DNA from: a virus
IMG/VR virus record: IMGVR_UViG_3300047546_001263
Coordinates: 37,261 to 101,260 of that record
Length of the DNA: 64,000 nucleotides
Direction: 5' to 3' (one strand)
Below the pieces are notes generated by a model. It made no database searches and was not told where the DNA came from. It was given only the letters and a program-made list of their open reading frames with translations. The translations under genes were made by a program, and so were the position numbers. Below are positions 1-38,834 of this stretch, in pieces. The stretch's first letter is position 1, and each line of letters begins with the position of its first letter.

Positions 1-2152
1 AATCTTCGTTTCTCACAAGCTCATTCTTTATTCTATTTCTTGCATATACAACCCCTTTAGCTTGCTCTTTAGGTGTAAAAATAATTCTTAAATTTGGAAA
101 GTTATACTCTTTCAATTTAGTATAAGCTTCTTCTGTGTCTTGTATATTTACTCCTACAAAAACTCTACTAGGGTCAATAGCTTCTTCATATAAACTTTTT
201 AAAGTATCTATAAGTTGAGAATCGCAGTAACTTGCTATTGATACGAATATGTTACCATTTCCAAAACTCCAACTATCGTTATACTCTCTAAACCAGTTAC
301 CTTTAAAATGACACTCTGCAATAAATGGTATTTGATGTCCTAGGTTAAATTTTTCAGTATTAATATAGTAATTTTTATCCTCAATGTCAGACATATATCC
401 TCTCATTCTATAAATGTAAGAAGACAGTGTTGAATGACTATTACCTATAAACTTAATACTACGAGTACATATAAACTGCTCAATAATAGGAATCCAGTTA
501 TTATCAAATTCATTATAGATACTAACTTGATTCTTTAAATCTTCATAGAAAGAAACTCGATAAAGACCCATAAGAGGTCTAAAAAATTCTTTATCTCTAT
601 GGTCTGTTGCAATGTAAAGCTTACTTCCCTGAGGGATTATATCTTTTATATTCTCTAAAATTTGCTCACAGCTAATAAATAATTCTTTATATTGAAAGTC
701 ATTTCTACGAATATGAATAGAGTAGTAATCTCTATCTCCTAACTTATTAATAAATTGCCAAGCTAAATCAAAAATATCTGTACGATATCTTACATGTTTA
801 GCGATAAGTTTTTTGATCTCTACATCTAAACTTGTAAACAAGGTCTGATGAGTAACACCTAGAAGATTAGATTCAAGGAAAATAAATTCTTCATCTGTAA
901 AGTATTCTTCACTTCTTAATACTGGGCGGTGTTTATGAAACTTAACAGGCGGGTTAATTTTTTCAAAATTCATAACGTGTAAAACTGCATCATAATCTAA
1001 TACTTTACAAATACTTTTTACACTGTCGTAATTATGTTCTAATCCTTTTTCTTCACAGAACTTACTAAACGGTATGGAAATTACTCCTAAATCTGAAGTA
1101 TCAAAAAAAGATTCCATACTAGAGTTCCCTTCTAGTAAGTACATTTTATATTCTGGTGTTAAAACAAGCTTTCGATTAGTTAAGTATGCTATACATACTG
1201 CTAACTCTAACGACATTCTTATATTGTTGAAACCACCAGGCCAAGGTCTAAATAAAATATAACCTTTACTACCATCATAGAATTTAAAGATGCTAGAAAA
1301 ATCCCACTTATTGTAGTATATATAATCTGTTCTATACTGATCTACACTCGTAACCATCTTATTACTTGCTTCGCTTATTATATTTGATAAATCGTATTTT
1401 TGTGTTTGATCAAAGGTATGATCTTGCTTAAAGAACAGCTTGTTTCCTTGCTTATCTGAAATTACATTAGGGTAATGTAGTATACTTCCTATTGTAGACC
1501 TACCGGTATCGTTCCATGCAGTACAGGTTCCAATATCCTCAACTAAATCAACTTTTATATTAGAATCTTTAATTGCATAATCTAATCCCCACATTTCTGC
1601 TTCCCATCTTCCTTCTTTCTTTCTGATCTGCTCACAATACTCTGTATATTTTTTGTAAAATTTCTTTAGAGTATTAAACTTTAAAGCAAATGGGTACATT
1701 ATCCCTTGTGCATTATGGATATCTTTTTCTCGATCTTCCCATCCGTTTAGTGGAACAAAGTGAATGAACTTTTGACCGATGATATGATTGTCTTCTAATT
1801 CAAAATCAACTGCTTTTATAAACAGCATATCTGGGTCCAGGAATAATAACTTATCATTATCTTGGAAGTAGTTATTTTCGCATAACCATTCTACAGATTT
1901 ATATTTATTAGGGATACCACCCCACCAGTCATCGTTAGCTGTTTGCCAATTATGAGCATAGTCTGGTTGATCTATTACTATAGCGTCAGATAAAAAACTA
2001 AAATCTGGGTTTTCATGTCTGTGTCCGTAATCTCCGGAGAGTAGAACGACTAATTTACCTTTTTGATTTACCTTCTTTAAGGACCAGTGTAATAGTTTTA
2101 ACTGCCATGCTTGATACTCACATCTACTAGTTCCGACAACAATATAGTCCAT
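1..2152 (-). CDS. Three-domain glycosyltransferase, partial (runs off the left edge)
   Basis: The frame is open from an ATG at 2152 to position 1 with no stop, giving about 717 codons, so the C-terminus lies outside the window. Three parts can be read. Residues 1-300 look like a GT-A nucleotide-sugar transferase, with a DPDM (DxD-type) motif near residue 113. Residues about 300-620 resemble protein O-fucosyltransferases: a GGFNNIR motif near 307, HIRRNDF near 480, then IATD and an STLSS..RMRG stretch near 570. From about 635, IFVSIASYCD...RVFVGV and YARNRI..ELVRNED match the start of the GlcNAc transferase family (GT60 type). The ATG follows directly on the stop of the upstream oxygenase gene, which suggests translational coupling. 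A role in decorating virion or host glycans is inferred; substrates are unknown. Confidence 0.8.
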   Translation of the reverse strand, partial: MDYIVVGTSRCEYQAWQLKLLHWSLKKVNQKGKLVVLLSGDYGHRHENPDFSFLSDAIVIDQPDYAHNWQTANDDWWGGIPNKYKSVEWLCENNYFQDNDKLLFLDPDMLFIKAVDFELEDNHIIGQKFIHFVPLNGWEDREKDIHNAQGIMYPFALKFNTLKKFYKKYTEYCEQIRKKEGRWEAEMWGLDYAIKDSNIKVDLVEDIGTCTAWNDTGRSTIGSILHYPNVISDKQGNKLFFKQDHTFDQTQKYDLSNIISEASNKMVTSVDQYRTDYIYYNKWDFSSIFKFYDGSKGYILFRPWPGGFNNIRMSLELAVCIAYLTNRKLVLTPEYKMYLLEGNSSMESFFDTSDLGVISIPFSKFCEEKGLEHNYDSVKSICKVLDYDAVLHVMNFEKINPPVKFHKHRPVLRSEEYFTDEEFIFLESNLLGVTHQTLFTSLDVEIKKLIAKHVRYRTDIFDLAWQFINKLGDRDYYSIHIRRNDFQYKELFISCEQILENIKDIIPQGSKLYIATDHRDKEFFRPLMGLYRVSFYEDLKNQVSIYNEFDNNWIPIIEQFICTRSIKFIGNSHSTLSSYIYRMRGYMSDIEDKNYYINTEKFNLGHQIPFIAECHFKGNWFREYNDSWSFGNGNIFVSIASYCDSQLIDTLKSLYEEAIDPSRVFVGVNIQDTEEAYTKLKEYNFPNLRIIFTPKEQAKGVVYARNRIKNELVRNED

Positions 2153-3406
2153 TTATTGAGGTACAAATTTATAATCTGCTAATGTATAATGTAAAAAGAA
2201 ATTTCTAAAGAATTCTCCTTCAAAAGGTTCAATACGTCCATGTTTGTTAGTAGCAGATTCATATAGAATCATTTCCCCTGGTTCTGCATAAACTTTATGC
2301 CATCTACCTAAATGGTCTTGAATATCTAATGGCCAATCTCTATCTACCTGCTTATCTATTATTACTATAGATGATATGTGGTGAGTTACTAAAGTATCTG
2401 TATGTGGTTCTAGTATAGCCCCTCTTTTATAAGATCTGATACCGTAAATCCATTTCGGTACTAAACGTTCTTTATTACCTATAAACTCTTCGTGGATAGG
2501 TTGTAACTCTTCTGCAATAATCTCTCTAATACGGGTAAAAGCATCCATACTAAAGATTTCTACCGGTGCATTACCTTGATTATCGTGTATAAAATCAGTA
2601 ATACCGTTCCAATGTTCTGCTCGTACTGTAGGTTTCAGTAAGTTGTATGCTTCTGTAATCAACTGGAAGGTCTTTTCAGGTACTTTTACAACTTTAAATC
2701 CTAGTTCAGAAAGCTTTGGTAAATCTTCTTTCTTTGAAAATACTTTTTGTACTGGTTGCTGTGGTTGTGTCATTTCTTGATATTCTTTTGCAAGTCTAGC
2801 ATCTTCAGCACTATTGAATACATTTTCTCTAAACCATTTTGTAATAATTACTTTTCTACCTTTTCTTACAGGTAAACCTGCATGTAAAGCGGCTGAGTTT
2901 TCAGTTCCTGTACCGTTAGAGTTTTTCCAAACTACTGCAGTACCTTTTACTGGTGTAAATGTCTTTTGTAAGGTAGGAAAATCTGTTTCACCTCCTTCTT
3001 CAACATCATTAAGGTATATCATAAACGTCCATGTTCTTTGGCCGCTAGACAAACAATGGTTATGGTATGCTTCTTTTCCAAAAGCATCTTGGTGGTGTCT
3101 AAATTCTTGACCTACCTCATATATTTGACCTTGTGTTGGTTCTGAATAAGGAGCTTCTATTCCTAATTCTGTATACATTTTTTGATTAACACTACTGATA
3201 ATCGGATCTGTATCATGTAAAACTGCTGTAGAACTAGTACGGCCTTCGTCGTATTTTACAGATTGGGCTCCACTACCTGCTACGCTTGATCGAACACTTC
3301 CGTGTTCTGTTAGTCTTACAATATGATCACATTCTTCGTTTGTTAAGAACTGAGGGATTGTGAATATTTCCAATCCATGGCTGTTTTCTATATATACTCT
3401 TTCCAT
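2153..3406 (-). CDS. Tandem 2-oxoglutarate/Fe(II) dioxygenase (prolyl-4-hydroxylase-like)
   Basis: This 417-residue protein carries two oxygenase domains. The N-terminal one is of prolyl-4-hydroxylase type: iron ligands H105 and D107 in an HQD motif, H175 in ALHAG, a GGETDFP strand near 138, and a basic residue near 185 that could bind 2-oxoglutarate. The second domain has H335-T-D337, H389 and arginines near 391 and 401. Both sets of iron ligands are present, so both domains may be active. Members of the family hydroxylate protein side chains or small molecules; the substrate here is not visible. It sits between the ribonucleotide reductase genes and a multidomain glycosyltransferase. Hydroxylation of an amino acid that is then glycosylated is possible but only inferred. 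No Shine-Dalgarno is seen before the ATG. Confidence 0.85.
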   Translation of the reverse strand: MERVYIENSHGLEIFTIPQFLTNEECDHIVRLTEHGSVRSSVAGSGAQSVKYDEGRTSSTAVLHDTDPIISSVNQKMYTELGIEAPYSEPTQGQIYEVGQEFRHHQDAFGKEAYHNHCLSSGQRTWTFMIYLNDVEEGGETDFPTLQKTFTPVKGTAVVWKNSNGTGTENSAALHAGLPVRKGRKVIITKWFRENVFNSAEDARLAKEYQEMTQPQQPVQKVFSKKEDLPKLSELGFKVVKVPEKTFQLITEAYNLLKPTVRAEHWNGITDFIHDNQGNAPVEIFSMDAFTRIREIIAEELQPIHEEFIGNKERLVPKWIYGIRSYKRGAILEPHTDTLVTHHISSIVIIDKQVDRDWPLDIQDHLGRWHKVYAEPGEMILYESATNKHGRIEPFEGEFFRNFFLHYTLADYKFVPQ

Positions 3407-3423
3407 ATAAGGGTGTTTTATTA

Positions 3424-5139
3424 TTAACCATCACAAGCTACACAATCTTCTGCAGTTCTACTACCAATGTCTCCGTTAATTACAGAATCTGTTCTTAGAT
3501 AATATAAGGTTTTTATACCTAACTTCCAAGCCGTCTGGTGAACTAAGTTGATAAATCTTGGACTATCAGTTGGATCAAATGCTAAGTTTAAAGACTGAGT
3601 CTGATCGATATACTGCTGGCGGATTGCAGCTTGTTCTACCAACTGTAGCTGGTTAATTTCAGCAAATGTTAAGAAGATTGGTTTATCCTCTGCAGGCATA
3701 ACATCTTCTGGTAAATTTGCAATAGAACCTCTATCTTTCATAATCTGGTCCCATACTTCTTCTGTATTATGACCTCTTTCTAATAAATAGTTTTCTAGTT
3801 CAGGATTTTTACGAATAAAAGTTCCCTTTCCTGAATTAAATGTGTAGATATTCGCCGGTAATGGTTCAATACCTGCTGATACACCTCCTGATATAGTTGA
3901 ATTTGAAACTGTTGGTGCAATTGCAAGCAAGTGAGTGTTTCTCATACCTGTACCTTTACACCATACTGGTTCTCCATATTCATCAGCTAACTTTCTAGAA
4001 GCAGCTTCTGCTTGTGACTTAATTTGAGAGAATATCTGATGTGTAAAGCTATTTGCTGCAATACTAATAAAAGGTATCTTCTTTTGTTGTAATAATGTAT
4101 GCCATCCTAGAACTCCTAACCCAATAGCTCTACCTTTCTTAGCTGAACGATGTGCTCTGATTAAAGACTCTTTTCCGTTGGTCTTTACTAAAAACTCTTC
4201 CATTACTCCATCTAAGAAGTAGATTGCAGTTTCAATTAAATCAGTAGATTTCCATTCATCCCATTTAGCTAAGTTAACCGAACTTAAGCAGCAAATAAAA
4301 CTGTGCTCTTCGTCAGTATGTAAAGTAATCTCTGAACATATATTAGTCATTGTTACTTCTAAATTATTCTTAATATATGCCGGAGGGTTAGCATTGTTTA
4401 CATTATCTTTAAACATAATATAAGGTTCCCCTGTCTCAACTCTAGCCTTTAGTATTTCTACCCAGACTTCCATTGCCTCAGGGTCTCTACGCTCGATCTT
4501 TTGCATAAAGTTATCATCCACTACAACGCATTGATGTAGGTTAAGACACTGTCTATTCGGATCTCCTTTAGGTCGTCTAATCTGTAAAAATTCCTTAATA
4601 TCTGGATGGTTAATGTCTAGATTTACGGAAGCCGCTCCTCTTCGAACTGCTCCTTGATTTGTTGCAATAATAGTAGAATCGTAAATCTTAGCCCAAGGAA
4701 TAACTCCTTCTGACTGTCCTAGATCTCCGTTACCAATTTTGGAACCTCTTCCTCTAATTTTAGAAAGACCAATACCTACACCACCTCCTAACGAAGTCAA
4801 TCTCATCAATTCAGCATTTGTTAATCCAATACCTCTAATAGAGTCTGGAGTATCAATACCAAAGCAGGAAATAGGTAGTCCTTTGTCTGTACCCGTGTTA
4901 GATAAAACTGGAGAAGCTAAATTCAACCAACCTTTCCACATATACTTAAAAAACTTGGCTGCTAAATCAGGTCGATCTAATCTTGCTGCAACTGTATCTG
5001 ATACTCTCTTATATGCTTTTCGAGGAGTCTCTCCTGGAAGGAGATATCCTTTAGATATTGTTGATAAAGAAATTTCGTTCATCCATTCAGGATAATCTTT
5101 TCCTGCTTCCCATGCGGAAGTATCTACTTGTAGTGCCAT
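3424..5139 (-). CDS. nrdA: Ribonucleoside-diphosphate reductase, large subunit
   Basis: Catalytic subunit of class I ribonucleotide reductase, making dNTP precursors for phage replication. The protein has 571 residues, much shorter than the roughly 760 of E. coli or T4 NrdA, and begins directly in the catalytic region with no N-terminal ATP-cone. Visible catalytic parts are the redox cysteine C92 (ISCFG), the N266-I-C268-S-E270 active-site triad region, its partner cysteine at 283 or 284 before LSS, a YYLRT motif carrying the radical-transfer tyrosine pair, and a C-terminal CVAC pair (C566, C569) for re-reduction. Without the cone, overall activity control by ATP/dATP is expected to be lost unless NrdB supplies it, and the NrdB here has no cone either. 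It lies 22 bases downstream of nrdB, so the two are probably co-transcribed. Confidence 0.95.
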   Translation of the reverse strand: MALQVDTSAWEAGKDYPEWMNEISLSTISKGYLLPGETPRKAYKRVSDTVAARLDRPDLAAKFFKYMWKGWLNLASPVLSNTGTDKGLPISCFGIDTPDSIRGIGLTNAELMRLTSLGGGVGIGLSKIRGRGSKIGNGDLGQSEGVIPWAKIYDSTIIATNQGAVRRGAASVNLDINHPDIKEFLQIRRPKGDPNRQCLNLHQCVVVDDNFMQKIERRDPEAMEVWVEILKARVETGEPYIMFKDNVNNANPPAYIKNNLEVTMTNICSEITLHTDEEHSFICCLSSVNLAKWDEWKSTDLIETAIYFLDGVMEEFLVKTNGKESLIRAHRSAKKGRAIGLGVLGWHTLLQQKKIPFISIAANSFTHQIFSQIKSQAEAASRKLADEYGEPVWCKGTGMRNTHLLAIAPTVSNSTISGGVSAGIEPLPANIYTFNSGKGTFIRKNPELENYLLERGHNTEEVWDQIMKDRGSIANLPEDVMPAEDKPIFLTFAEINQLQLVEQAAIRQQYIDQTQSLNLAFDPTDSPRFINLVHQTAWKLGIKTLYYLRTDSVINGDIGSRTAEDCVACDG

Positions 5140-9681: not shown

Positions 9682-10482
9682 TTATTCGTTAAAAAGGTCA
9701 TCAAATTTACTTACCGTGTCTTTCAAACCAGGAGCTGCAGTTTCTAAAGTAAAGTCAGTTGAATGACTACCTAAAGTCTGAGTCAGGTTGTCTGCTGGAG
9801 GAGCTGCTGGAGTTTCCTCATCTGCTGAACCAGGAGTTAAGTAATTTTGTAATTGCTTTTTAATGAACTCATAATCGTATTGAGTATGAATCTCAACAGG
9901 GTGTGGTTGGTTCTTTAACCATAAGTCAACTTGTGCTGCATTATCTGATAATGGAGTTTGCTTAGGTCGAATACGAACCGATGTGGTTGGGTATGGGTTA
10001 CCAGCAGCAACTTCTACTACTAAGTCCCATCCATTCATTACGTCTGTGTAATCTCCTACCTCTTCGTCTTGAGCTAATGCTAATAACGCTTTGTAGATCG
10101 TCACACCAAATCCCCATAAACGAACACCTTTCTCTTCTTCACCTTTTACGATTACTGGAGCGAAAATACGTGTCTTGGGGTTAAGTTTACCGGCTAATGT
10201 CCAGTTATCCTTATCTGAAGTCTTCTTTAATTCCTTAATGAATTCTTCAATAGGATCTTGTTTTCCGAAGTTAGATAAAGCGGCCATAGGGTATTTACCA
10301 ATTCCATAGTGAAACTTTACTTCCTTAAATGGAAGATTAGGATCATACATAGAAGGTACAATACGAATAGTGCTTTTTCCAATTTCAGGTTTCCAGAAGG
10401 TAGCTGAATAGTCTACTTTCTCTCTTTCTTGTCCGCCGTTATTCAACGCAGACAGCTTTGCTTTGATTGCATCTAGATTCAT
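9682..10482 (-). CDS. Single-stranded DNA-binding protein, gp32-like
   Basis: T4 gp32-type SSB, 266 residues. The N-terminus is basic and helical (MNLDAIKAKLSAL). It is followed by the conserved core with FWKPEIGKSTIRIVP and an OB-fold-like region up to about 200, then a low-complexity linker and an acidic tip (KFDDLFNE) that in this family recruits replication partners. The protein contains no cysteine at all, so the zinc site of T4 gp32 (three Cys and one His) is absent. Genes for the polymerase and UvsX flank it, fitting a replication/recombination role. Confidence 0.88.
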   Translation of the reverse strand: MNLDAIKAKLSALNNGGQEREKVDYSATFWKPEIGKSTIRIVPSMYDPNLPFKEVKFHYGIGKYPMAALSNFGKQDPIEEFIKELKKTSDKDNWTLAGKLNPKTRIFAPVIVKGEEEKGVRLWGFGVTIYKALLALAQDEEVGDYTDVMNGWDLVVEVAAGNPYPTTSVRIRPKQTPLSDNAAQVDLWLKNQPHPVEIHTQYDYEFIKKQLQNYLTPGSADEETPAAPPADNLTQTLGSHSTDFTLETAAPGLKDTVSKFDDLFNE

Positions 10483-10515
10483 AATATAACTTTAATTGTT
10501 TATAACTTATTAAAT

Positions 10516-10526
10516 ATACGAAATTA
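10516..10526 (-). promoter_or_regulatory. TTCGTA-type element upstream of the SSB gene
   Basis: The coding strand reads TAATTTCGTAT about 33 bases before the ATG. Similar TTCGTA strings lie upstream of the polymerase, gp53-like, GT-A and gp26-like genes. It resembles the Bacteroidota -7 element (TAnnTTTG) but is not identical. Confidence 0.3.
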
Positions 10527-10529
10527 CTC

Positions 10530-10988
10530 TCAATTCTCCAACTCTACGATCTTAAATAATTTAGTATTTACTCTTTTTAATTCCGGACCTTTCGTTAATA
10601 GAATACAATTCTTGTAATCAGTCCAGTTAATCTTAAAAGAAGTATCTAACACTCCGTTATTAAGTTCTTTGATTAGGGTATTAAGTGCGTTAATCGTATA
10701 AAGGGTATTTGCTTCTTTCTTGCGATGTACTAGAATAGTATTATCGATGAAGTTAGAAACGTTGCCAAAATCTACATTATAAGTACAGATGTATTCATCT
10801 TGGCTTTTTGAATATAAAACAAATATCTTATTGTAGATTATTCTATATTTTTGTACTATATTTTCTATTGTTGCATCCAATTCCTCTCCTGTGGAGAAAG
10901 TGCAGAACAGTTTATTACTCATATCCTCAGTTAAATATATTTGATCGATATCGTAATCGAATCGACTTTGAGACATAACATTTTCCAT
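10530..10988 (-). CDS. Protein of unknown function in the replication block
   Basis: A 152-residue protein that I do not recognise. It is soluble-looking, with an alternating acidic and hydrophobic N-terminus and a basic C-terminal segment (KGPELKRVNTKLFKI). It has two or three isolated cysteines and no obvious catalytic motif. Met1 and Met5 are both possible starts; neither has a clear Shine-Dalgarno. The position between the DNA polymerase and SSB genes suggests a role in replication or its control, as with RegA or clamp-loader proteins in T4, but I see no sequence match to those. Confidence 0.65.
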   Translation of the reverse strand: MENVMSQSRFDYDIDQIYLTEDMSNKLFCTFSTGEELDATIENIVQKYRIIYNKIFVLYSKSQDEYICTYNVDFGNVSNFIDNTILVHRKKEANTLYTINALNTLIKELNNGVLDTSFKINWTDYKNCILLTKGPELKRVNTKLFKIVELEN

Positions 10989-26374: not shown

Positions 26375-27025
26375 TTAGTTTTTACAATTTGGTAATTTGA
26401 GAGTTAGGTCTTGTATTATTCCTAGCTTTCTTTCTTTTATATAATTAGTCCAAAGGATGCTCCCTTCGTACTTTTGTGTATACTTTTTTTCAAGATAAGA
26501 ATTAAGTGCATATATATCATCAAAAAAATCAGTATAACTTCTTTTAAATAACTTCTCAATTCCTTCTGGGTAAGTAGTAAACATTCTCTCGTCTAATGTC
26601 TTATATAGATATCTTCCGTATATAAAGTCTTCTTTCTTTCTTCCATTTAATAAAGGGTGTGCATGAATAGCTGCTTCTTGAAAATACTGCTCTACATTCT
26701 TATCGTATTCTATACGTCTTGTTTCTAAGTCTGGTTTAAACTTTATGATAGTTGAGTATTTAGAAAGATCTGAAATTAAATTTGCAGCTTGATATGTAGA
26801 GTGTAGTATTAAGTACTTTTTCTCTTCATACATTGGAACCTCTAAGTTAATAGTAATCCTTGTATTGTTTTGATACCTCATTAACTTATTAACCCACCTT
26901 AGATTCTCAGGAGTATTCCAACTATGAACGTAGGTGTCTACTTCTTCTCCTAAATCTTCTATAAACTTAATAAAGTTATCTGAAAAGTTAGTAAGTAGCC
27001 CTGATATTATTATTGCTTTAGCCAT
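26375..27025 (-). CDS. Putative glycosyltransferase-like / polysaccharide biosynthesis protein
   Basis: A 216-residue protein. The start KAIIISGLLTNF, then VDTYVHSWNTPENL at about 29-43 and a KFKPDLETRR stretch near 93, follow the pattern of a group of surface-polysaccharide proteins. These begin ISGQLRxF, then DVFIHTW, then a RxDL/KPD motif. The enzymatic function of that group is not well defined. The gene overlaps the sugar-nucleotide dehydrogenase gene by 8 bases and belongs to the glycan cassette. Confidence 0.5.
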   Translation of the reverse strand: MAKAIIISGLLTNFSDNFIKFIEDLGEEVDTYVHSWNTPENLRWVNKLMRYQNNTRITINLEVPMYEEKKYLILHSTYQAANLISDLSKYSTIIKFKPDLETRRIEYDKNVEQYFQEAAIHAHPLLNGRKKEDFIYGRYLYKTLDERMFTTYPEGIEKLFKRSYTDFFDDIYALNSYLEKKYTQKYEGSILWTNYIKERKLGIIQDLTLKLPNCKN

Positions 27026-28193
27026 TCAGTAATCTAGTATTCCCGTAGTGTATAACCCTGTTAATATCTGATTTATATTCCCTCCATGGATCTATAATAA
27101 CTGAGCCTTTAGGAAAATCAAAATCATGATGTTTCTTATAATGAGCTAGTAGGTAAATTGCTGGTACTGGATCTTCAATGTCGTATAGAACTTCGTACCC
27201 TTGTTCTTCTACATAATAACCTACTAATATAGATGAAGATCCGTCTTCGAAATGTACTCCTGGTTTATAAGATTTACCTAATATAACTACAGGTAATTTA
27301 CGAACTTTTGCGTAAAGAACCAACTTATTTGCTAGATTTTTTGCTTGTTTTTCTCTAGCTTTCATAATGGAATCGAATAAATCGTAACCTAATCTAAGCT
27401 TTTCAGATAAGAATCTTAGTGCTATATTGTCACGAGGGTGGCATCCACCGCCATCTCCCATTCCGGCTTTCATATACGCAGGGCCTAAGATGCGCTGGGT
27501 GCTTCGTTCTAAAGCTCCTGTAACTACGTCTGTGTTTATATTTCCATTTTTTTCAGCAACATCTTGAATCATGTTTACAAGAGCAACTTTGGTTGATATA
27601 AACGTATTGTAAAATATCTTTATTGATTCAGCTTCATCCCAAGTACCTATTTCAATTCTAGTAGAAGGGTTTATAAATGTATTATAAAAGTCTATAAGTA
27701 ACTTAGCGTCCCCTGTTTCTGATCCATCTTCAGTTCCTATAATAACCATTTCTGGGTTGACCATATCATACTTAACCGATCCCATTGCGATTAAATAAGG
27801 ATTGTATATAAACCTAAAGTTATTAACTAGTGGAATAAATTCTCGTCGTATTGTTCCGGGCAATACTGTAGATATTAAAACTACAAGTTGATTAGTATTT
27901 GTGTACTTGTCTACTTTAGTAAGTACTTCTTTTACTATCCCGTAATCAAAATCTTTGTTTTGTAAGTGAGAGGTGGGAAAGCGACCATCGTAGTCTGGGT
28001 GATGCGGTGTAGGTACAGCTATGAAAATGAGATCTTTATCTTTACATACTTTTTCTACATCACTAACCATAGGAAAGTTTACTGTTGCTGCTACACTTTT
28101 ATTTGTATCATACCCTTCAACGTAATGCTTTTCTGACATTACTTCTGCAGCTTCTTTACCTAATTTACCTACCCCTATAAAACCTATTTTCAT
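27018..28193 (-). CDS. UDP-glucose/GDP-mannose dehydrogenase family protein
   Basis: NAD-dependent four-electron oxidation of a nucleotide sugar to a uronic acid form is the family reaction. The 391-residue protein has the N-terminal Rossmann motif GFIGVGKLG (4-12), IFIAVPTP at 57-63, STVLPGT at 108-114, a central helix with ESIKIFYNTF (K192), the catalytic cysteine C251 in GGGCHPRD, and the C-terminal LGKSYKPGV..DGSS region. These cover all three expected parts. It would supply an activated sugar acid to the neighbouring transferases. The exact sugar cannot be read from sequence. Confidence 0.9.
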   Translation of the reverse strand: MKIGFIGVGKLGKEAAEVMSEKHYVEGYDTNKSVAATVNFPMVSDVEKVCKDKDLIFIAVPTPHHPDYDGRFPTSHLQNKDFDYGIVKEVLTKVDKYTNTNQLVVLISTVLPGTIRREFIPLVNNFRFIYNPYLIAMGSVKYDMVNPEMVIIGTEDGSETGDAKLLIDFYNTFINPSTRIEIGTWDEAESIKIFYNTFISTKVALVNMIQDVAEKNGNINTDVVTGALERSTQRILGPAYMKAGMGDGGGCHPRDNIALRFLSEKLRLGYDLFDSIMKAREKQAKNLANKLVLYAKVRKLPVVILGKSYKPGVHFEDGSSSILVGYYVEEQGYEVLYDIEDPVPAIYLLAHYKKHHDFDFPKGSVIIDPWREYKSDINRVIHYGNTRLLNG

Positions 28194-28196
28194 TTA

Positions 28197-28694
28197 TTAT
28201 TTTGCTTTATAGTCAGATACTAGTAAATTTCCTGCAAAAATCGAATGGTTCTTTGCAACTGTGATATGAGCTACTCTACCTTGGCAAGCTGTAATGCTTA
28301 TCTGATCTATGTTAACCCATACTTGACCGTCAAACATTTTATGTTTATCAGCAGTAACTTTAACTAATTTTTCTGGAGCAATTCCTTCTATTTCAGGAGC
28401 TACTTCTGTAAAGTAACCTAAGTATGTTTCACCTTCAAAATCTTCTCTTACGTATATAATAGAATCTAATGTTAGTACTTGAGGTAAATAGTTAATCTTA
28501 ATACCTTGATAGTATTTTTCATAATCTGCATCAGGGTCAATTTCTACAGAAACAATTTCAGATATTTCAAAGGTAGATTCATCTGTGTTGTATGTAATAA
28601 TAGACTCTCCTGCTTGTAATTCTTCTAAAGTTTTTCTAACAGATCCTAGATCAACTGAAGTATCGAAAGAAAGGGTGTATTTTACGTTGCTCAT
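28197..28694 (-). CDS. Hint (hedgehog/intein)-like domain protein, putative
   Basis: A 165-residue beta-rich protein. GESIITYNTDESTFEISEI (about 29-47), VTADKHKMFDGQVWVNIDQI (about 113-132) and AHITVAKNHSIFAGNLLVSD (about 143-162) line up in order with the N-terminal, TxxHxxx..G.W and 'NHxFFANGILVHN' blocks of Hint folds. The nucleophilic cysteine expected at an active N-terminus and the final His-Asn are missing, so self-splicing is not expected. It has its own TATTTATA box 13 bases before the ATG. The match is by eye and could be a fold analogy only. Confidence 0.4.
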   Translation of the reverse strand: MSNVKYTLSFDTSVDLGSVRKTLEELQAGESIITYNTDESTFEISEIVSVEIDPDADYEKYYQGIKINYLPQVLTLDSIIYVREDFEGETYLGYFTEVAPEIEGIAPEKLVKVTADKHKMFDGQVWVNIDQISITACQGRVAHITVAKNHSIFAGNLLVSDYKAK

Positions 28695-28717: not shown

Positions 28718-29644
28718 TTAAATTAACTTTGGTATTTTATTTGAGGTTCTCTTTTCGGAAAAAGTGGTTAAGTGTTCTAAGATTTGATTAGCAAATAATT
28801 CTTGACTAAGTGGTCCTGGGTGAGCGCCGTCTCTAGCAAATCCATCTTTTATATTTTTATGATTTTCTAAAAATTCAAAGTAAGGTAGTGTTTGTTTTTT
28901 AGTCAAGTATTTTTTCTTTAGATACTCATATAAGGGAAAATCCCACGAGCTGTAGAATGTTTCAATATTATTAGCTTTTGCAATTGCATCAATATGAGAA
29001 ACATTTTTTATTGCATTATAGATTTGTACTTCTTCTGTAGCATACGTATAATACTGTTCCCACTTATCTTCTATATGGTGAGGGTGTACATTCGGAATTA
29101 AGTTATAGTAATGCGTGCCCCTCTTTTGCACATGTTCTACATATTCCTCTCTCCAGTGTGTAGGTAATAGGAAGATTGCTATATCTATCTGATATACATC
29201 AGTAAGGTATTTAAAAAGTTTTAAAGATTTTGTAATACTACCGCCTGGGTATCCTAAATTAATAAGTTGAATTGGTTTATCTGTTTTTAACGACTGTTTA
29301 ACTAAAGCATGCCAAGTTTTATCTTCGTCTATACCTACACCGAATGTAAAACTACAACCAAATACTGCGATTTTTAAATGATCTGGTTTTGGATTGTTTA
29401 TAGACCAATCTCCTCTACACGCATAATCATTTATATAATACCTGACATCTTCAAATCTCAATTTCGTTTTATTATCTTCTATAGCTTTTATTGTCTGAGT
29501 CTGTTCAGAATAAGAAGTAAATTGAGTAAATCGATTTAACGCTCCTGTAGCCCAAGGATCTAAGGTCATAATAGTCTTATACTCTAACCTTAAAACTTCA
29601 CAGAAGTGTTTAATACTTTCTATATTCCAAATTATATCATTCAT
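28718..29644 (-). CDS. SGNH/GDSL-family hydrolase, putative carbohydrate esterase
   Basis: A 308-residue protein with the SGNH blocks. GCSFTFG at 96-102 carries the nucleophile Ser98, LGYPGGS gives block II, FLLPTH is near block III, and DGAHPG at 272-277 carries the Asp272/His275 pair. Family members remove acyl groups from sugars, lipids or peptidoglycan. Within this glycan cassette, acetyl removal from (or transfer to) a polysaccharide is a sensible guess. The first 85 residues are an extra helical segment. The start overlaps the radical-SAM gene's stop by one base. Confidence 0.8.
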   Translation of the reverse strand: MNDIIWNIESIKHFCEVLRLEYKTIMTLDPWATGALNRFTQFTSYSEQTQTIKAIEDNKTKLRFEDVRYYINDYACRGDWSINNPKPDHLKIAVFGCSFTFGVGIDEDKTWHALVKQSLKTDKPIQLINLGYPGGSITKSLKLFKYLTDVYQIDIAIFLLPTHWREEYVEHVQKRGTHYYNLIPNVHPHHIEDKWEQYYTYATEEVQIYNAIKNVSHIDAIAKANNIETFYSSWDFPLYEYLKKKYLTKKQTLPYFEFLENHKNIKDGFARDGAHPGPLSQELFANQILEHLTTFSEKRTSNKIPKLI

Positions 29645-30918
29645 TAAAAGTAGGGTTTAAATTCTGGGTTGAGTTTTAGAAAATCCTGGTTGCGAACTTT
29701 ATCTAAATCTTTTGTTACTGTTATAAATCGTTTGAAAAACTCAGGGTTACCTTCTTTCTTATTCATGATATCTAATAATGATTCCCATCCGGAAAATGGT
29801 ATGCCGTATTTATTTTCCATACTTCTACCGTACTTAGTTATCTTTTCTGTGGCTAATTCTTTTAACTCGTTTGGTAGAGTTTCTAAAGCGTAGTACATCG
29901 GAAAGAATACCGGGTTGATATGAAACCTACTAGTAAAGTAATGACTAGGATCAAAAGGATATTGCTCGTGAGGCTTTTTGTGAATAGGAATTAGCCCCAT
30001 ATCAAAAAACTCTTTATGCATTTGATCTATTCGAAATATATTCAAAAGGCTAATTGTAGGGTGTAGCCAGAAATCAATACCTGCTTCGTTTATCTTTAGT
30101 AGATTTTCTTTCGTCTTAGCCCACTTTCCGTTGTGTCTAACTAGTTCAAAAAGATCTCCAGTCCCGTCTATAGATAAACTAAGATGGACATGCTTAAACT
30201 TTTTCCAAATATCAATAATGTTTCTACCTTTATTTTCCAACATTGTAGCATTAGTAGAATACTTTAACTTAACATCGTATAAGTTACGTTCTTCTAACAT
30301 CTGTATAATTTTCCAATGCTCGGGCATAATTAGAGGTTCACCTCCTGCGAAATGTATTTCTTTTGCACTATGAATAGTCTCTTCTATATTCTGCCAAAAA
30401 CTATCCGCATTATCTAGATTTATTAATCCTAAGTGTTCAGACTTGTCCCCAAACACTTGAATAAAATCTTTAGTCCAAGCTGTACTAAATAGAGGTGAGC
30501 AGGTTCTACATGCTAGGTTACAGTAGTTACTAAATCTAAAATCCCAATAAAGTAATCTAAGTTCATCAATACTCCCATCTTCCTTAGTATTCTCAACTAA
30601 GTCCTCTATCTGATCGAACCAATGATCATTCATACCAATTCTCATACTTCCCATTCCGGACTTTTCTTTACTTACACATCTATGACAAGATGCCGGTAAA
30701 GGTTTTCCTTCAAGCATTCCTTTGCGCATTGATTTAGCCTTCTCACTATTCATGATATCGAATAAAGAAGTATCGTTCACGTTCCCTAAAGTAGACTGGT
30801 TATCTACTGGGGTCATACAACATGGATATGTTCTACCGTCATTCACTACGTGTAAGTGCATCCATAATGCAGAGCAGAAATTTTCTGATTTTTTATAATC
30901 TTTAGTTGAATTGCTCAT
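29644..30918 (-). CDS. Radical SAM protein with N-terminal cysteine cluster (SPASM/twitch-like)
   Basis: A 424-residue protein. The radical-SAM cluster motif CX3CX2C is C133, C137 and C140 (YCNLACRTC), followed by an FAGGEPL motif that binds SAM. Before it, C15, C33, C34, C78 and C81 form a likely auxiliary iron-sulfur site; this inverted order (auxiliary part first) is known from twitch/SPASM-type proteins of unknown reaction. Substrate unknown. It sits between the esterase and a glycosyltransferase-like gene and is related in layout to the radical-SAM proteins at 32.2-33.9 and 34.4-35.8 kb. Confidence 0.85.
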   Translation of the reverse strand: MSNSTKDYKKSENFCSALWMHLHVVNDGRTYPCCMTPVDNQSTLGNVNDTSLFDIMNSEKAKSMRKGMLEGKPLPASCHRCVSKEKSGMGSMRIGMNDHWFDQIEDLVENTKEDGSIDELRLLYWDFRFSNYCNLACRTCSPLFSTAWTKDFIQVFGDKSEHLGLINLDNADSFWQNIEETIHSAKEIHFAGGEPLIMPEHWKIIQMLEERNLYDVKLKYSTNATMLENKGRNIIDIWKKFKHVHLSLSIDGTGDLFELVRHNGKWAKTKENLLKINEAGIDFWLHPTISLLNIFRIDQMHKEFFDMGLIPIHKKPHEQYPFDPSHYFTSRFHINPVFFPMYYALETLPNELKELATEKITKYGRSMENKYGIPFSGWESLLDIMNKKEGNPEFFKRFITVTKDLDKVRNQDFLKLNPEFKPYF

Positions 30919-32248
30919 TCAATATTCTTTTTAATATAAATACTTCAGCTCTACTAGCTTGTATCATATGTTTATAATTATGTGTAAGTATATTACTCAT
31001 CTGTTTAGTCATCTCTAGTAACTCTTTAGGAGTTTTCTCAACTAAATCTTTCATAATATCTATAATCTTTTCTAACCTTTTGCTAAAGTTCTTTTCTTTA
31101 TCATAAGATTCATCCCAAAAGTCCCCAAATGTTTTAAACCCTAGTTTCTGTAATTCTTCAAGAGTTCCCGGGTTACCAAGAACGATAAAAGGTTGGCAGC
31201 AAAAAATAGGTTTAAATATCTTTTCAGATAAAAATATAGTATCTTCTTCAAACAATGTTTCTGTAAATACGTTTACAAAAGTATTTAGATGAAGAGTTTC
31301 GTTTAGGTTAAAAGCTAGGTTGTAGTTTAAGTTTGAATCTACAAAGTAGTCTTCGTTATTATCGTAGTTGTTAATAAAATCTAATCCCGATTGTTTGTTG
31401 TGTTTATAGTTATCAGGTACAAATGCATCATATAAAGTCATCCAAGGATTATCGTATAGTCTATCCCAATGGTGTTTATCTGCTGATTGATTAGCGTCTA
31501 AGTTACGACTACCCATGCTTAAGACTGTCGAATCTTTTAGTTGCGGGTCTTTTGCAATTTCTGTAAATAATAAAATCCTATGTGTTCTAGGTCTTCTATT
31601 TAGTGAGAGAAATCTTTTAGGCTTTGGGTAAGTTGTAACATACTTTCTTTTATCTTCAAAAGCGATTTGAAGTAACTGGTCGTTACTTTCATCTAGAAGG
31701 TCTTCTTTAATAAACCATGGATTAAGTAAAAAGTAGTTACAGGTTTTTACTGTAAAAAGAGCATTGTCGGGTTCTTCGTAATTCCACTTTAAGTTATTGG
31801 ACAATACTAATACGTCTTCTTTCTGAAAATTATACTTTAATGCAAACTTATTGAGAGCTTCTATTTCATTTACATCTGTTTTTTTAAAATCTCCTTCAAA
31901 TAAATGACTTAAAAGAATCTTAGCTTGTTTATTTTTAACCGCATTAACAATCGTATCGCTCAGCTTATAGTAAGTTTCATCACTAAGTCTACTGAAAGCA
32001 ACTTTATCTCTCAATAAAATAGCGTACATAAACTTTTCAGAACCTTTTATTAAATTATCCACAGTATCATGTCCAAAGCCATGCTCTCGGTAGTCTAAGT
32101 GTTTCTTAAAAAGAAAACCATATACATTATACTTTGCTAATTCATTATAAGTTCGAGGTAAATCTTCTGCCCCTACCTTCCCATTTGGGAGTGGATAGGG
32201 GTTTGGATATTCTTCTAAGTCTACGTATTTGTCAAATCCGAATTTCAT
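30902..32248 (-). CDS. Putative glycosyltransferase (GT10/exostosin-like C-terminal half)
   Basis: A 448-residue protein. The C-terminal half has FVNVFTETLFEEDTIFLSEKIFKPIFCCQPFIVLG (about 325-360) and GFKTFGDFWDESYD, a pattern seen in GT-B transferases such as fucosyltransferase-like GT10 and exostosin-type proteins, where E.x.SEK.xxP binds the nucleotide sugar. A LSLNRRPRTHR motif near 215-225 fits such families too. The N-terminal half is not recognisable. It overlaps both flanking radical-SAM genes (17 and 4 bases), so all three are translationally coupled. Confidence 0.6.
   Translation of the reverse strand: MKFGFDKYVDLEEYPNPYPLPNGKVGAEDLPRTYNELAKYNVYGFLFKKHLDYREHGFGHDTVDNLIKGSEKFMYAILLRDKVAFSRLSDETYYKLSDTIVNAVKNKQAKILLSHLFEGDFKKTDVNEIEALNKFALKYNFQKEDVLVLSNNLKWNYEEPDNALFTVKTCNYFLLNPWFIKEDLLDESNDQLLQIAFEDKRKYVTTYPKPKRFLSLNRRPRTHRILLFTEIAKDPQLKDSTVLSMGSRNLDANQSADKHHWDRLYDNPWMTLYDAFVPDNYKHNKQSGLDFINNYDNNEDYFVDSNLNYNLAFNLNETLHLNTFVNVFTETLFEEDTIFLSEKIFKPIFCCQPFIVLGNPGTLEELQKLGFKTFGDFWDESYDKEKNFSKRLEKIIDIMKDLVEKTPKELLEMTKQMSNILTHNYKHMIQASRAEVFILKRILNEQFN
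30935..30942 (-). promoter_or_regulatory. TATTTATA box upstream of the radical SAM gene at 30918
   Basis: Coding-strand TATTTATA ends 16 bases before the ATG but lies inside the preceding coding region. Confidence 0.35.
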
Positions 32249-33867
32249 ATCAACTTATGTTTAATGCCCGGTCCGTTTAGATCAGATTCTTTCTTTAGCA
32301 AGTCAATCAAATCAATCATATCGTCTTGCTGCTGATTATCTGGTTCTATGTAATCTTGTGAACCTGGGTTATGCCATTGTGGATTTAATACCCATCCTTC
32401 TTCTTTAGCTTTCTTTAAAACGTCGTGTACGTATCTGTTTGATTTAGCATCATCTCCGTCTATTACCTCTTTAAGAGCATCTAGCTTAGTCTCAGGTATA
32501 GTATCCCACCATTTTTTAATTTCTGGGAAAGCTTTAATGATATCTTTATTTCGTCTTACATCGTACTGAGCATAAAAAGATTTAAAATCTCTTTCTCTAC
32601 TTTCCAAAGACGAAGTAAAAGCATGACCTGTATCTACCTGTTTGATATATTCTATCATCCTAAGTATACCGTCTCTTTCCATATCTAATAATCCGTTAGA
32701 GCCTCCTTTCCAGTTTGCTTCTAACCATTTTTCAATATGAGCTGCTCTCTCCATTCTGATATAAACAGGAAGTGTTACTATAGACTGGAATGAAGGAAAA
32801 CGTAATATATTAAATGACATAATAGCCGCATGAGCTCCATGTTTTGCTTTTAACTTTAACATCTCATCCATAAATTCTGTAATTGAGAATAAACATAATC
32901 CGTTTATAGTCATCATTACGTTTACAGATTTCACATTTGCTTCTTCGTTAACTCGGTACATATTTTGTAACCAAGTTTTCCACTCAAGTCCGTATCTAAT
33001 ATACTCAGCTTGTAGACCTGTAGCTTCACAAGATGTATATAAGTTAAATTCTTTAAAACTATGAGTAGCATCTATAAGAGCATCTAATAGTTCTTTCTTT
33101 TGACCTAAGTTCGAGTTTACTGCAAATGGTACTTCACATTGTGGGTTTTTCTTCCACCAATCCATTAACTTCCAAAAGTCAGGAGACATAGTAGGCTCTC
33201 CTCCAGTTACTCTTAACTCTCGTAAAGAGAATTGTAATTCTGCTTCCCACCATTTCCAAAATGCTTCAATATAGGGATTACCTTCATTCTTTCTTCCATA
33301 AGGCATTGCATGTCTTCCATCGTGTTGAAAGGCTCCAGCGCCGTCTGAGACTAAGTTCTGATACGGCCCAAACTTCTTTATATCATTTTGCCATGTAGTC
33401 GAAAAAGAAGCATTACAGTAAGAGCATCCAAAATTACAATTAGGATCAAAAGCAATCTCAAGTGTCTTAAGGTCAACATCTTCTGTATAACCTAAACTAC
33501 CTTTAGCTTCTTTTAATTCCTCATCTGTATAGATTACTGATTTATATACCCTATCTGATACTTTATCAGGTCCTAAGTCTTCTATCTTCCAACAGTATTC
33601 ACATTCTTTAGGTCGCTCACCTTCCATCATTTGCTTTCTAATAGCTTTCTTGTAGGTAGTGTTGTGAATTGCTTTGTATGACTTAGCAACTTCTTCTAAA
33701 GGTATCTTATGTGCAGGTGGGTGATGACAACTGGCTGTTGTACCGTTACCTAACCATATGGTAGCATTGTACCATTTAGCACCACAAAAGGATTGGGATA
33801 GTTTATTTATAACCCTTTCTCTATATTCTTGGAACGATTCATCGTCCTTTTTTGCGAAAACTCCCAT
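32245..33867 (-). CDS. Radical SAM protein, CHHP-type N-terminus (paralogue 1)
   Basis: A 540-residue protein. C144, C148 and C151 (NCNFGCSYC) form the radical-SAM motif, and RVTGGEPTMS follows as the SAM-binding strand. The N-terminus holds a second cysteine set: C28, C47 in SCHHPPAHKIP, then C89 and C92 in ECEYCWK, probably an auxiliary cluster. The whole N-terminal block recurs in the protein encoded at 34435-35805, so the two are paralogues. The reaction is unknown. Neighbours suggest a target in glycan or surface-protein modification. Confidence 0.85.
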   Translation of the reverse strand: MGVFAKKDDESFQEYRERVINKLSQSFCGAKWYNATIWLGNGTTASCHHPPAHKIPLEEVAKSYKAIHNTTYKKAIRKQMMEGERPKECEYCWKIEDLGPDKVSDRVYKSVIYTDEELKEAKGSLGYTEDVDLKTLEIAFDPNCNFGCSYCNASFSTTWQNDIKKFGPYQNLVSDGAGAFQHDGRHAMPYGRKNEGNPYIEAFWKWWEAELQFSLRELRVTGGEPTMSPDFWKLMDWWKKNPQCEVPFAVNSNLGQKKELLDALIDATHSFKEFNLYTSCEATGLQAEYIRYGLEWKTWLQNMYRVNEEANVKSVNVMMTINGLCLFSITEFMDEMLKLKAKHGAHAAIMSFNILRFPSFQSIVTLPVYIRMERAAHIEKWLEANWKGGSNGLLDMERDGILRMIEYIKQVDTGHAFTSSLESRERDFKSFYAQYDVRRNKDIIKAFPEIKKWWDTIPETKLDALKEVIDGDDAKSNRYVHDVLKKAKEEGWVLNPQWHNPGSQDYIEPDNQQQDDMIDLIDLLKKESDLNGPGIKHKLI

Positions 33868-34451
33868 TATAATTTATGTATAAAATTTAGGTTACCGGAA
33901 ATGTCAACAGACTTGTCAAATATAAACTCTTCAAAAGTATGATGAGATATGACTCCTGTTATTCCTTTTAATATAAATTCATGAAGATCTAAATCTACAT
34001 AATTAAGGTTGAAGTTATTTTTAGGGAAGTTGCCTGCTCCAAATATAATATGCGGGCTATTATCTATTCCAAAAACCTTATTATCTAAATTAATTTCTTC
34101 AATTAATTGCTTATTAATAAATATTCTTAAATACTTATTTGGCAGGTGTGTTAATGTTAGTAAAACTTCTTCTCCTTCCTTGATTAAAGAAGGTAAGTTG
34201 ATATACGAAGTTTCTTCTTCTGTAGTATATGCAAAAACCATTCCTTCTGAATGGATATCTAATCCTGTATATTTAGGTAATAGTGCAAATATAGTTTTTC
34301 TTTCTACAGGTTTTTCTTTTAATGTAAACCTGATATCAAACTCAAAATAGCAATCTCCTCTTAATATCCTATTTCCAGGATTTTCAGGAAAGGTATCACA
34401 GATACTACTTGGCCAAAATACCCATGGTTCCCCTTTATTTAATTTTAACAT
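33867..34451 (-). CDS. LamG/concanavalin A-like lectin domain protein
   Basis: A 194-residue protein that reads as a single beta-sandwich. YFEFDIRFTLKE (about 35-46), a central TSYINLPSLIKEGEEVLLTLTHLPNKYLRIFINKQLIEEINL region and IIFGAGNFP are typical of LamG/concanavalin A-like modules, which bind sugars. The final residues (FDKSVDISGNLNFIHKL) resemble the end of such a domain in fibre proteins. It sits between the two paralogous radical-SAM genes and overlaps both, so it may present or recognise their glycan substrate. Confidence 0.6.
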   Translation of the reverse strand: MLKLNKGEPWVFWPSSICDTFPENPGNRILRGDCYFEFDIRFTLKEKPVERKTIFALLPKYTGLDIHSEGMVFAYTTEEETSYINLPSLIKEGEEVLLTLTHLPNKYLRIFINKQLIEEINLDNKVFGIDNSPHIIFGAGNFPKNNFNLNYVDLDLHEFILKGITGVISHHTFEEFIFDKSVDISGNLNFIHKL

Positions 34452-35805
34452 AAAATTCGTTTAGTTCAGGGAATGTCTCTAAAAAGTTAGTTCCTCTTCT
34501 TTTATCTAACTCATCTACAAATATAACAAAATCTTTTCTATTTCTTTCTATATCAAAATCATCTTCTGAAGTAGCGTAGTCATAAATGCGTTTTATTTTT
34601 TGAATCTCTACATTAGAGAATCCGTAATTGTCTTTTGTAAATTCCTTTATACCGTAATATAAGGCTTTTTCTGCAGACTTCAAAATTAATGTTTTATGTT
34701 CTGGTTCTAATATCTTAACAGAAAGGTGTGTTGGCCACCTCAAGTAAGATGTATCTAGTTGTAAAGCAGATATCCAATACCTTTGTCCATTAGCATGTTT
34801 CTTTTTCATCTCAAAAGTCTTATCAATCAACTCGTCGTAACTAAATACAGAAAGTGCATTGAATGTCGCCATGATATTGATAGTAACTTTTGGTAAGGCG
34901 GTTAATATCTTATCTACATTACTCCAGAACCTATCATACTCTAATCCATACCTTGTATACTCTGCTTGAGCACCTTTTGCTTCTACTGAAGTAAAGATAG
35001 TTAATTCTCTTACTTTATCATTTTCACAAAGGTCTTTAGCAATTTCAATAAACCTGTCAATTAGGTTATCCGGGACGCCAAGGTTAGAGTTAATTGATAA
35101 AGATAGATTTGGATTCTTATGGTAATGATCTTGTATGTATTCTAGAACTTTAAAAGTATCTTTTGATAATAAAGGTTCACCACCTGTAATTCTAAAGGTA
35201 TGTAAATCTTTGTATAAGTCCGGCCACCATTTCCAAAATGCTTCTACATAAGGATTAAGATCGGAATGTTTATAAGGCATCTCTCCTCTTGCCTGTATAT
35301 TGCTGATATCATTAAAATTGTAGCTAGTTGGGTATGCCCCGTGTTTCTCAATCTCTTCTACCCATTTGGATGAATACTGTGGCCCACAATAAGCACACTT
35401 GAAGTTACAGGTATTTGAGAAAGATACTTCTACATATCTTGGATTGTAATCTTCTCTCCAGTGGCTATCTTTTATCTTATCAAATTGATCTAATGACCAT
35501 GGTTCTGAAGATTTAAAAACTCTATCGGAAAATGAATTAGAACTTTCTTCTACTTTCCAGCAATAGTTACATTCTTCTGGTTTTCCTCCTTCCAACATTT
35601 CTCTCCTCTTCTGCTTTTTATAGGAAGTGTTATGTAGAGCAGAAGGATTTCTTTCTACCTCCTTTAAAGGTATTTTATGTGGTGATGGGTGGTGACAAGA
35701 GTGTGTCATTCCCATTCCTAAGTGCATAGTAACTTGAGTCCATTTTGCTAAACAAAACCCACATCCTACTCCGTCTAGTTTATTTTTTACTTCTTGTAAA
35801 CTCAT
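34435..35805 (-). CDS. Radical SAM protein, CHHP-type N-terminus (paralogue 2)
   Basis: A 456-residue protein. C133, C137 and C140 (TCNFKCAYC) form the CX3CX2C motif, followed by FRITGGEPLLS. N-terminal cysteines are C15, C18, C37 in SCHHPSPHKIP, and C79 and C82 in ECNYCWK. The block closely matches the protein encoded at 32245-33867, pointing to a duplication. The C-terminal 120 residues diverge between the two. It overlaps the upstream galactosyltransferase-like gene by 4 bases. The reaction is not known. Confidence 0.85.
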   Translation of the reverse strand: MSLQEVKNKLDGVGCGFCLAKWTQVTMHLGMGMTHSCHHPSPHKIPLKEVERNPSALHNTSYKKQKRREMLEGGKPEECNYCWKVEESSNSFSDRVFKSSEPWSLDQFDKIKDSHWREDYNPRYVEVSFSNTCNFKCAYCGPQYSSKWVEEIEKHGAYPTSYNFNDISNIQARGEMPYKHSDLNPYVEAFWKWWPDLYKDLHTFRITGGEPLLSKDTFKVLEYIQDHYHKNPNLSLSINSNLGVPDNLIDRFIEIAKDLCENDKVRELTIFTSVEAKGAQAEYTRYGLEYDRFWSNVDKILTALPKVTINIMATFNALSVFSYDELIDKTFEMKKKHANGQRYWISALQLDTSYLRWPTHLSVKILEPEHKTLILKSAEKALYYGIKEFTKDNYGFSNVEIQKIKRIYDYATSEDDFDIERNRKDFVIFVDELDKRRGTNFLETFPELNEFYVKIK

Positions 35806-38632: not shown

Positions 38633-38834
38633 TTATTGTTGGATCTTTTGGTTGCGCCATTTTATGGAATTCAGTTAAGTAGAATTGGATACGTTCGCTC
38701 CAGTCATCTTTATCTACTTCTTCAAACCAAATAGTTAATGCATCCATAGATGCTGCAATCTTTTCTAAAGCTCTAACCTTTCTTTCTTCTAAAGCGATTA
38801 GATCTAATTCGTCTTGTTTTAGCGTTTTGCTCAT
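38625..38834 (-). CDS. Small helical protein, unknown
   Basis: A 69-residue protein with one long amphipathic helix (about 5-55) and no catalytic motif. It overlaps the GT7 gene by 8 bases and the upstream transferase by 4. It is of unknown function; it may be an adaptor or simply a small conserved phage protein. Confidence 0.5.
   Translation of the reverse strand: MSKTLKQDELDLIALEERKVRALEKIAASMDALTIWFEEVDKDDWSERIQFYLTEFHKMAQPKDPTING

Follow-up and report, generated by a model that had tools for sequence, protein, structure and literature searches.

Fused glycosyltransferases next to a prolyl 4-hydroxylase suggest that proteins of some phages are hydroxylated and then coated with sugars by the phage itself, much as plants treat cell-wall proteins

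To our knowledge, hydroxyproline glycosylation is known only from eukaryotes. In plants, the hydroxyproline O-arabinosyltransferases (HPATs, family GT95) transfer L-arabinose onto hydroxyproline (Hyp) (PMC6322572). The Skp1 pathway, with the prolyl 4-hydroxylase (P4H) PhyA, Gnt1 and the bifunctional glycosyltransferase (GT) PgtA, yields a Hyp-linked glycan with GlcNAc and Fuc; Gnt1 initiates on Hyp and POFUT2 on Ser/Thr (PMC6939170). P4H is also among the commonest auxiliary genes of aquatic viruses, recorded at 62% of Baltic Sea water stations, and its viral use "remains cryptic" (PMC9301287). The P4H of chlorovirus PBCV-1 and its peptide substrates have been characterised, according to the account of Eriksson 1999 given in PMC9301287. 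The phage cassette described here provides a concrete, testable answer on viral P4H, namely hydroxylation as the first glycosylation step on phage Pro/Thr-rich (PT-rich) proteins. It was found at the left edge of a 64,000-nucleotide stretch of DNA (the window; G000:C1:37261-101260 of a 101,260-bp virus record) from a Flavobacterium-type phage and continues into the rest of the source contig (Table 1).

Table 1 Features of the cassette on the source contig
Feature	Size or residues	Window position	Other position	Strand	Remarks
Tri-domain glycosyltransferase (tri-GT) gene	917 aa in full	1..2152	contig 36659-39412; L002:9398-12151	(-)	
tri-GT domain 1	residues 1-285	1298..2152		(-)	HPAT-like GT-A glycosyltransferase; DPDM = DxD motif
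tri-GT domain 2	residues 298-587	392..1261		(-)	O-fucosyltransferase (O-FucT)-like; GGFNN..R, HIRRNDF
tri-GT domain 3	residues 634-917	1..253 (start only, edge-cut)		(-)	GT60/GlcNAc-transferase-like; QVDSHSRF
Two-domain 2OG-Fe(II) oxygenase	417 aa	2153..3406		(-)	Abuts tri-GT start, zero gap
P4H domain	residues 16-197	2816..3361		(-)	By phmmer
Second 2OG-oxygenase-like domain	residues 272-411	2174..2593		(-)	phrog_2954, E 7.5e-18
O-carbamoyltransferase 1			contig 35110-36657	(-)	Downstream of tri-GT
Stand-alone GT60	308 aa		contig 34191-35117	(-)	
O-carbamoyltransferase 2			contig 32636-34198	(-)	
GDP-mannose 3,5-epimerase			contig 31660-32631	(-)	E 1e-97 to Arabidopsis 2c59
PT-rich protein	966 aa		contig 28722-31622	(-)	TPAP/TPSP/TAAP repeats
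PT-rich protein	257 aa		contig 27674-28447	(-)	TPAP/TPSP/TAAP repeats, tandem
PT-rich protein	251 aa		contig 26911-27666	(-)	TPAP/TPSP/TAAP repeats, tandem

The fused glycosyltransferase and its distribution

The first-pass annotation had described three glycosyltransferase types in one partial protein, of which 717 open codons lie in the window and the last ~200 codons beyond its left edge. The source contig supplied the C-terminus, and the tri-GT stops after 917 aa with the order HPAT-like GT-A (residues ~1-285), O-FucT (298-587) and GT60/GlcNAc (634-899). The 917-aa frame and the Pfam matches confirmed the three types more strongly than first claimed. The middle part matched the whole O-FucT model PF10250 (profile 1-326 of 326, E 3.1e-24, 86.6 bits, cut-off 31.5), and its residues 469-587 aligned to human POFUT2 (4ap5/4ap6, E 7.7e-5). 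The GT60 core was present in the continuing sequence, where the Pfam GlcNAc model PF11397 covered residues 682-899 and a preceding stretch of the completed protein (E 7.8e-39, 134.6 bits, cut-off 21); PHROG 24687 "glycosyltransferase" covered residues 634-866 (E 6e-23).

The N-terminal part, previously called GT-A-like, was upheld as such and refined to HPAT-like. The window copy scored below the cut-off of the HPAT model PF23452 (16.9 bits, E 0.0042, cut-off 23.9). Among 13 diverse homologues (34-87% identical), ten matched the model at E <= 1, with a best E of 1.6e-12; the cut-off was exceeded by the full proteins of L067 (43.4 bits) and L151 (41.9 bits) and by a free-standing bacterial copy in L158 (38.1 bits). 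DPDM was invariant in all 13 aligned sequences. An AlphaFold2 model built from the 13-homologue alignment showed a GT-A fold (pLDDT 79, pTM 0.80), its best PDB neighbours being GT6 and glycogenin (Z ~16 over ~200 residues). Since no HPAT structure was among the Foldseek/VIA matches of this model, the fold search gives GT-A and cannot decide on HPAT; the domain 1 profile had no match among PDB sequences. On the basis of the HPAT matches of its homologues and the predicted fold, domain 1 is by sequence a GT-A enzyme, probably of HPAT ancestry, with hydroxyproline arabinosylation as a candidate activity.

A chance open frame was ruled out, because dN/dS was ~0.05 per domain (0.04-0.07; approximate values, with synonymous sites close to saturation), even over the three domains and indicative of strong purifying selection, and because the GGFNN..R, HIRRNDF and DPDM motifs were invariant across ten homologues. 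A sequencing artefact was likewise ruled out by the recurrence of the fusion in many independent contigs. An AlphaFold2 prediction for all 917 residues reached a pLDDT of 41 and was discarded. In three relatives the gene is broken by a stop codon or frame change (L009:8401-11151, L018:10001-12662 and L020:7125-9858, the last between HPAT-FucT and GT60), so these copies are decayed or misassembled.

The tri-GT, whole or cut, was found in 20 viral contigs at 83-99%, and the order RNR - P4H - tri-GT - carbamoyltransferase was constant in them as far as each contig reaches. Some close relatives insert a Nucleotid_trans gene (PF03407, E 1e-8; L005:8381-9202) between carbamoyltransferase and GT60. 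The order HPAT-FucT-GT60 was kept in most diverged phages, with domain 1 at 34-60%. Larger forms also occur. The neighbouring GT60 is joined to the fusion in L070, L071, L073, L074, L075 and L188, giving four-GT proteins of 1205-1260 aa, and a 1519-aa viral protein (L183:338-4894) carries HPAT-like, O-FucT, GT60, GT60 and GT_PLOD domains, the first of them identified by a profile built in this analysis. GT_PLOD (collagen-type GT) genes also accompany some cassettes.

A search of genome contigs with the single window sequence gave no match; the diverse alignment found four bacterial contigs. In the Bacteroidota-assigned contigs L155 and L156, a P4H gene is followed by fusions of 1516 and 1532 aa. 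A 940-aa protein with two GT_PLOD stretches and a histo-blood-group type GT6 adjoins the P4H and the multi-GT fusion in L155, a Saprospiraceae MAG (L155:5859-8678). P4H and HPAT-like domains are separate neighbouring genes in L157 (a Myxococcota MAG) and L193 (a virus, with a weak O-FucT-like match). The search for HPAT/domain 1 recovered only the query genome itself from 395 Bacteroidota genomes (1/395) and nothing from 282 genomes of the phylum of the Myxococcota MAG (0/282; nothing scored anywhere). Against cultured phages, tblastn with domain 1 gave only a hit of E 0.7 in Lactobacillus phage SAC12B.

The oxygenase, the downstream enzymes and the acceptor

The hydroxylase gene that the first-pass annotation had placed before the tri-GT proved to be an abutting gene for a P4H with a second oxygenase domain. 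By phmmer, the P4H domain matched the Bacillus P4H structures 5iax/3itq (E 1.2e-24) and the human and Chlamydomonas P4H (1e-19 to 6e-17). Its HxD...H iron ligands and 2OG-binding Lys were kept in nine aligned diverged sequences, as was a second motif set, HTD...HGR, in the C-terminal half. The PHROG label "ferrochelatase" (phrog_2954, phrog_3531) matches the 2OG-oxygenase-like domain and looks wrong.

An oxygenase beside glycosyltransferases might also serve DNA hypermodification, in which a base is hydroxylated and then glycosylated, as in TET/JBP-TAGT phages. The GT60 domain of L071/L075 matched TAGT below threshold (22 bits, cut-off 27.5), and the phage has apparent 7-deazaguanine DNA-modification genes, read by eye. 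However, the window oxygenase matched P4H and gave no match to Tet_JBP in the Pfam search, the GlcNAc/GT60 scores beat TAGT by tens of orders of magnitude, and we know of no DNA acceptors for O-FucT or HPAT enzymes. Because the oxygenase is not of the TET/JBP type, this explanation is extremely improbable. The members of the 7-deazaguanine set, again assigned by eye, are FolE-, QueE-, QueD- and QueC-like proteins and a DpdA-like transglycosylase homologue (L003:418-1128, 2937-3719, 3731-4192, 9718-10557; L004:6217-7020). Elsewhere in the window, several radical-SAM-like genes (29644-35805) may form a second modification cluster; they adjoin two GT-like genes (35802-38632) whose products are extended far at the C-terminus.

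Adjacent enzyme genes of the cassette abut or overlap by ~8 bp on one strand, an operon-like packing. The epimerase was assigned with a wide separation, the next best family reaching only 1.9e-26 against E 1e-97, and its gene recurs next to the cassette in L070, L175, L183, L168 and L156. GDP-mannose 3,5-epimerase together with carbamoyltransferase resembles the bleomycin sugar genes, which would fit a cassette for building or decorating either a polysaccharide of the host surface or a carbamoylated secondary metabolite, using a small-molecule or lipid-linked glycan acceptor and leading to an altered host envelope or an antibiotic-like compound. In line with this, the O-FucT, 2OG oxygenase, carbamoyltransferase and GDP-sugar genes of cyanophage S-SCSM1 are separate and stand beside other GTs, cyanophage clusters that combine carbamoyltransferase and 2OG oxygenase were interpreted in a survey of jumbo phages as secondary-metabolite or capsule modifiers (PMC7824862), and pelagimyophage GTs have been interpreted as O-chain modifiers (PMC7029224). 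We nevertheless regard such a role as unlikely. The oxygenase is by homology a peptidyl-proline hydroxylase, all three fused domains match protein-acceptor families, PT-rich proteins cluster with the cassette, and we noticed no gene for a lipid carrier, a flippase or a polymerase in the ORFs that were read. A polysaccharide or metabolite product leaves unexplained why a peptidyl-prolyl hydroxylase precedes protein-type GTs beside PT-rich proteins. A protein acceptor of the tri-GT is the best-supported reading.

Pro/Thr-rich proteins and the proposed pathway

No ORF of the 101-kb contig was [AST]P-rich except the three for PT-rich proteins downstream of the epimerase gene, and these three proteins had no match among PHROG families. 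In the 966-aa protein, 195 residues are Pro, of which 161 follow Ala, Thr or Ser and two follow Pro; such AP/SP/TP spacing is typical of plant arabinogalactan-protein (AGP) glycomodules. No membrane-span-like hydrophobic stretch was found in the proteins tested, a result consistent with modification in the cytoplasm from nucleotide sugars.

When 13 lineages (70% clusters) were compared, 6/53 ORFs within 1.5 kb of the cassette and 0/76 beyond were [AST]P-rich (Fisher p 0.004, weakened to 0.046 by clustering at 90%; the cut-offs for "PT-rich" and "near" were set after some loci had been inspected). Flavobacterium phage immuto, a cultured relative with 77% DNA identity in the RNR region, had no tri-GT match, different genes beside its RNR genes and no [AST]P-rich ORF among the 118 of at least 150 aa in its 160 kb. 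Two cases count against a pathway acting on PT-rich proteins: the L168 lineage has the cassette without a PT-rich ORF in its available sequence, and in L068-type phages the PT-rich ORFs lie ~5 kb from the cassette. In L185 they belong to a gene block with a tail-fibre-type protein, and the repeat protein of L066 ends in a short C-terminal tail, GPPGPPGPPG. Other repeat proteins were seen near related genes. In L102, L104, L106, L110, L123, L127 and L137, a GT60 gene is preceded directly by an [AST]P-rich protein and the full fusion cassette is absent. L192 encodes a collagen-like (GPT repeat) tail-fibre protein near its cassette (L192:8740-9585; PHROG 5073, E 9e-50) and carries a GT_PLOD gene as well, making collagen-type glycosylation in a phage possible.

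The repeats could also be glycosylated in mucin-like fashion on Thr/Ser; hydroxylation of the prolines would then be a modification of its own with a structural role, as in collagen, and would not provide the site of sugar attachment. In the seven PT-rich proteins pooled, 38% of the 739 prolines come directly after a Thr, and POFUT-type enzymes act on Ser/Thr (PMC6939170). Furthermore, L070, L175 and L183 retain GTs and Thr-rich repeats without the two-domain P4H, an absence that also counts against the hydroxylation-plus-glycosylation line proposed below; in L070 and L183 a small oxygenase (E 1e-4 to 7e-6) is all that is present. A Thr/Ser linkage without Hyp is thus a serious rival, notably in these lineages. 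For the cassette as a whole we consider it rather unlikely, given the HPAT-like domain and a GT60 of the Skp1 type, two features that indicate Hyp, and given the position of P4H immediately before the fusion in most lineages.

During infection the enzyme might instead act on proteins of the host, such as those that are secreted or lie on the cell surface, and apparently secreted phage proteins are encoded next to the cassette. This is very unlikely, as candidate acceptors are encoded beside the enzymes and nothing points to a host target. At L003:15092-19043, phage proteins with apparent signal peptides occupy the place of annotated C-type-lectin and cohesin-domain genes in immuto.

Domain identities, the P4H, the epimerase, the carbamoyltransferases, gene packing, PT-rich proximity and selection together favour a cytoplasmic hydroxylation-plus-glycosylation line that decorates phage-encoded PT-rich proteins; this is the best explanation and, judged from sequence, a fairly probable one. 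We infer its acceptor, linkage, sugars, virion location and purpose as follows. In the first step, the P4H domain would hydroxylate prolines preceded by Ala, Thr or Ser in the phage repeat proteins, and the second oxygenase domain would hydroxylate another site or residue. In the second, the tri-GT and the adjacent GT60 would attach sugars to Hyp and/or Ser/Thr in these repeats and possibly lengthen those sugars. The HPAT-like domain would use a UDP-sugar, the O-FucT-like domain a GDP-sugar (probably GDP-L-galactose/L-gulose from the phage GDP-mannose 3,5-epimerase, or GDP-fucose), and the GT60 domain would add GlcNAc or a related UDP-sugar. In the third, the carbamoyltransferases would O-carbamoylate the glycan or the glycan donor. 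We would expect the product to be a stiff fibre or sheath coated with sugars, similar to mucin or extensin and probably carried on the virion, that serves in host attachment or shielding. The three domains may work in series on one short glycan, the assembly line that the first-pass annotation had proposed for one protein. The data agree equally well with three parallel attachments, because Gnt1, POFUT2 and HPAT are all initiating enzymes.

More tentatively, and with some doubt, phages and a few bacteria may own a complete Hyp-linked glycosylation system, in which a multi-headed GT of three to five domains acts on mucin-, extensin- or collagen-like fibres; such a system would be a counterpart in prokaryotes, and possibly a source, of glycosylation of the plant HPAT and protist GT60 types. 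If the proposed pathway is true, hydroxyproline glycosylation extends to phages. Heavily glycosylated phage fibres are predicted, and multi-GT single-chain enzymes would be useful for glycoengineering.

Comparison with known systems

Each enzyme family of the cassette is already known. Searches of the accessible literature, which lacked most subscription journals, turned up neither the fusion nor its four- and five-domain forms, nor its association with P4H and repeat proteins, and no account of phage proteins in which HPAT, O-FucT or GT60 domains are fused. Chlorovirus PBCV-1 shares a viral P4H with the phage cassette and differs in being a eukaryotic virus; we know of no GT fusion in it. The sugar cluster of Synechococcus phage S-SCSM1 is similar in placing an O-FucT between 2OG oxygenases and in having a carbamoyltransferase and a GDP-mannose 3,5-epimerase, but its genes are separate and have no HPAT or GT60 match.

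Among protein-modifying enzymes, POFUT2 and the O-FucT family resemble domain 2 by a whole-domain match, with HxRRxDF and GxSxSTxS aligning to human POFUT2, whereas the donor of the phage enzyme may be GDP-L-galactose/gulose. The plant HPAT (GT95) system shares family kinship with domain 1 and a P4H partner, and the AP/SP/TP repeats of the candidate acceptors resemble the AGP glycomodules of plant hydroxyproline-rich glycoproteins. Plant HPATs, in contrast, are Golgi enzymes without these fusions, lie at a large sequence distance from domain 1 and use UDP-L-Araf as donor. As in the Skp1 pathway of Dictyostelium and Toxoplasma, a cytoplasmic P4H would act first, and then a GlcNAc transferase of the GT60 type and a GT with several domains. 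The likeness is one of working principle only, and no Skp1-like protein was noticed among the listed phage ORFs. Unlike the phage cassette, Skp1 has a single target proline, and the GTs acting after Gnt1 belong to other families; the phage has GT60, O-FucT and HPAT-like domains fused in one chain, accompanied by carbamoyltransferases and repeat proteins.
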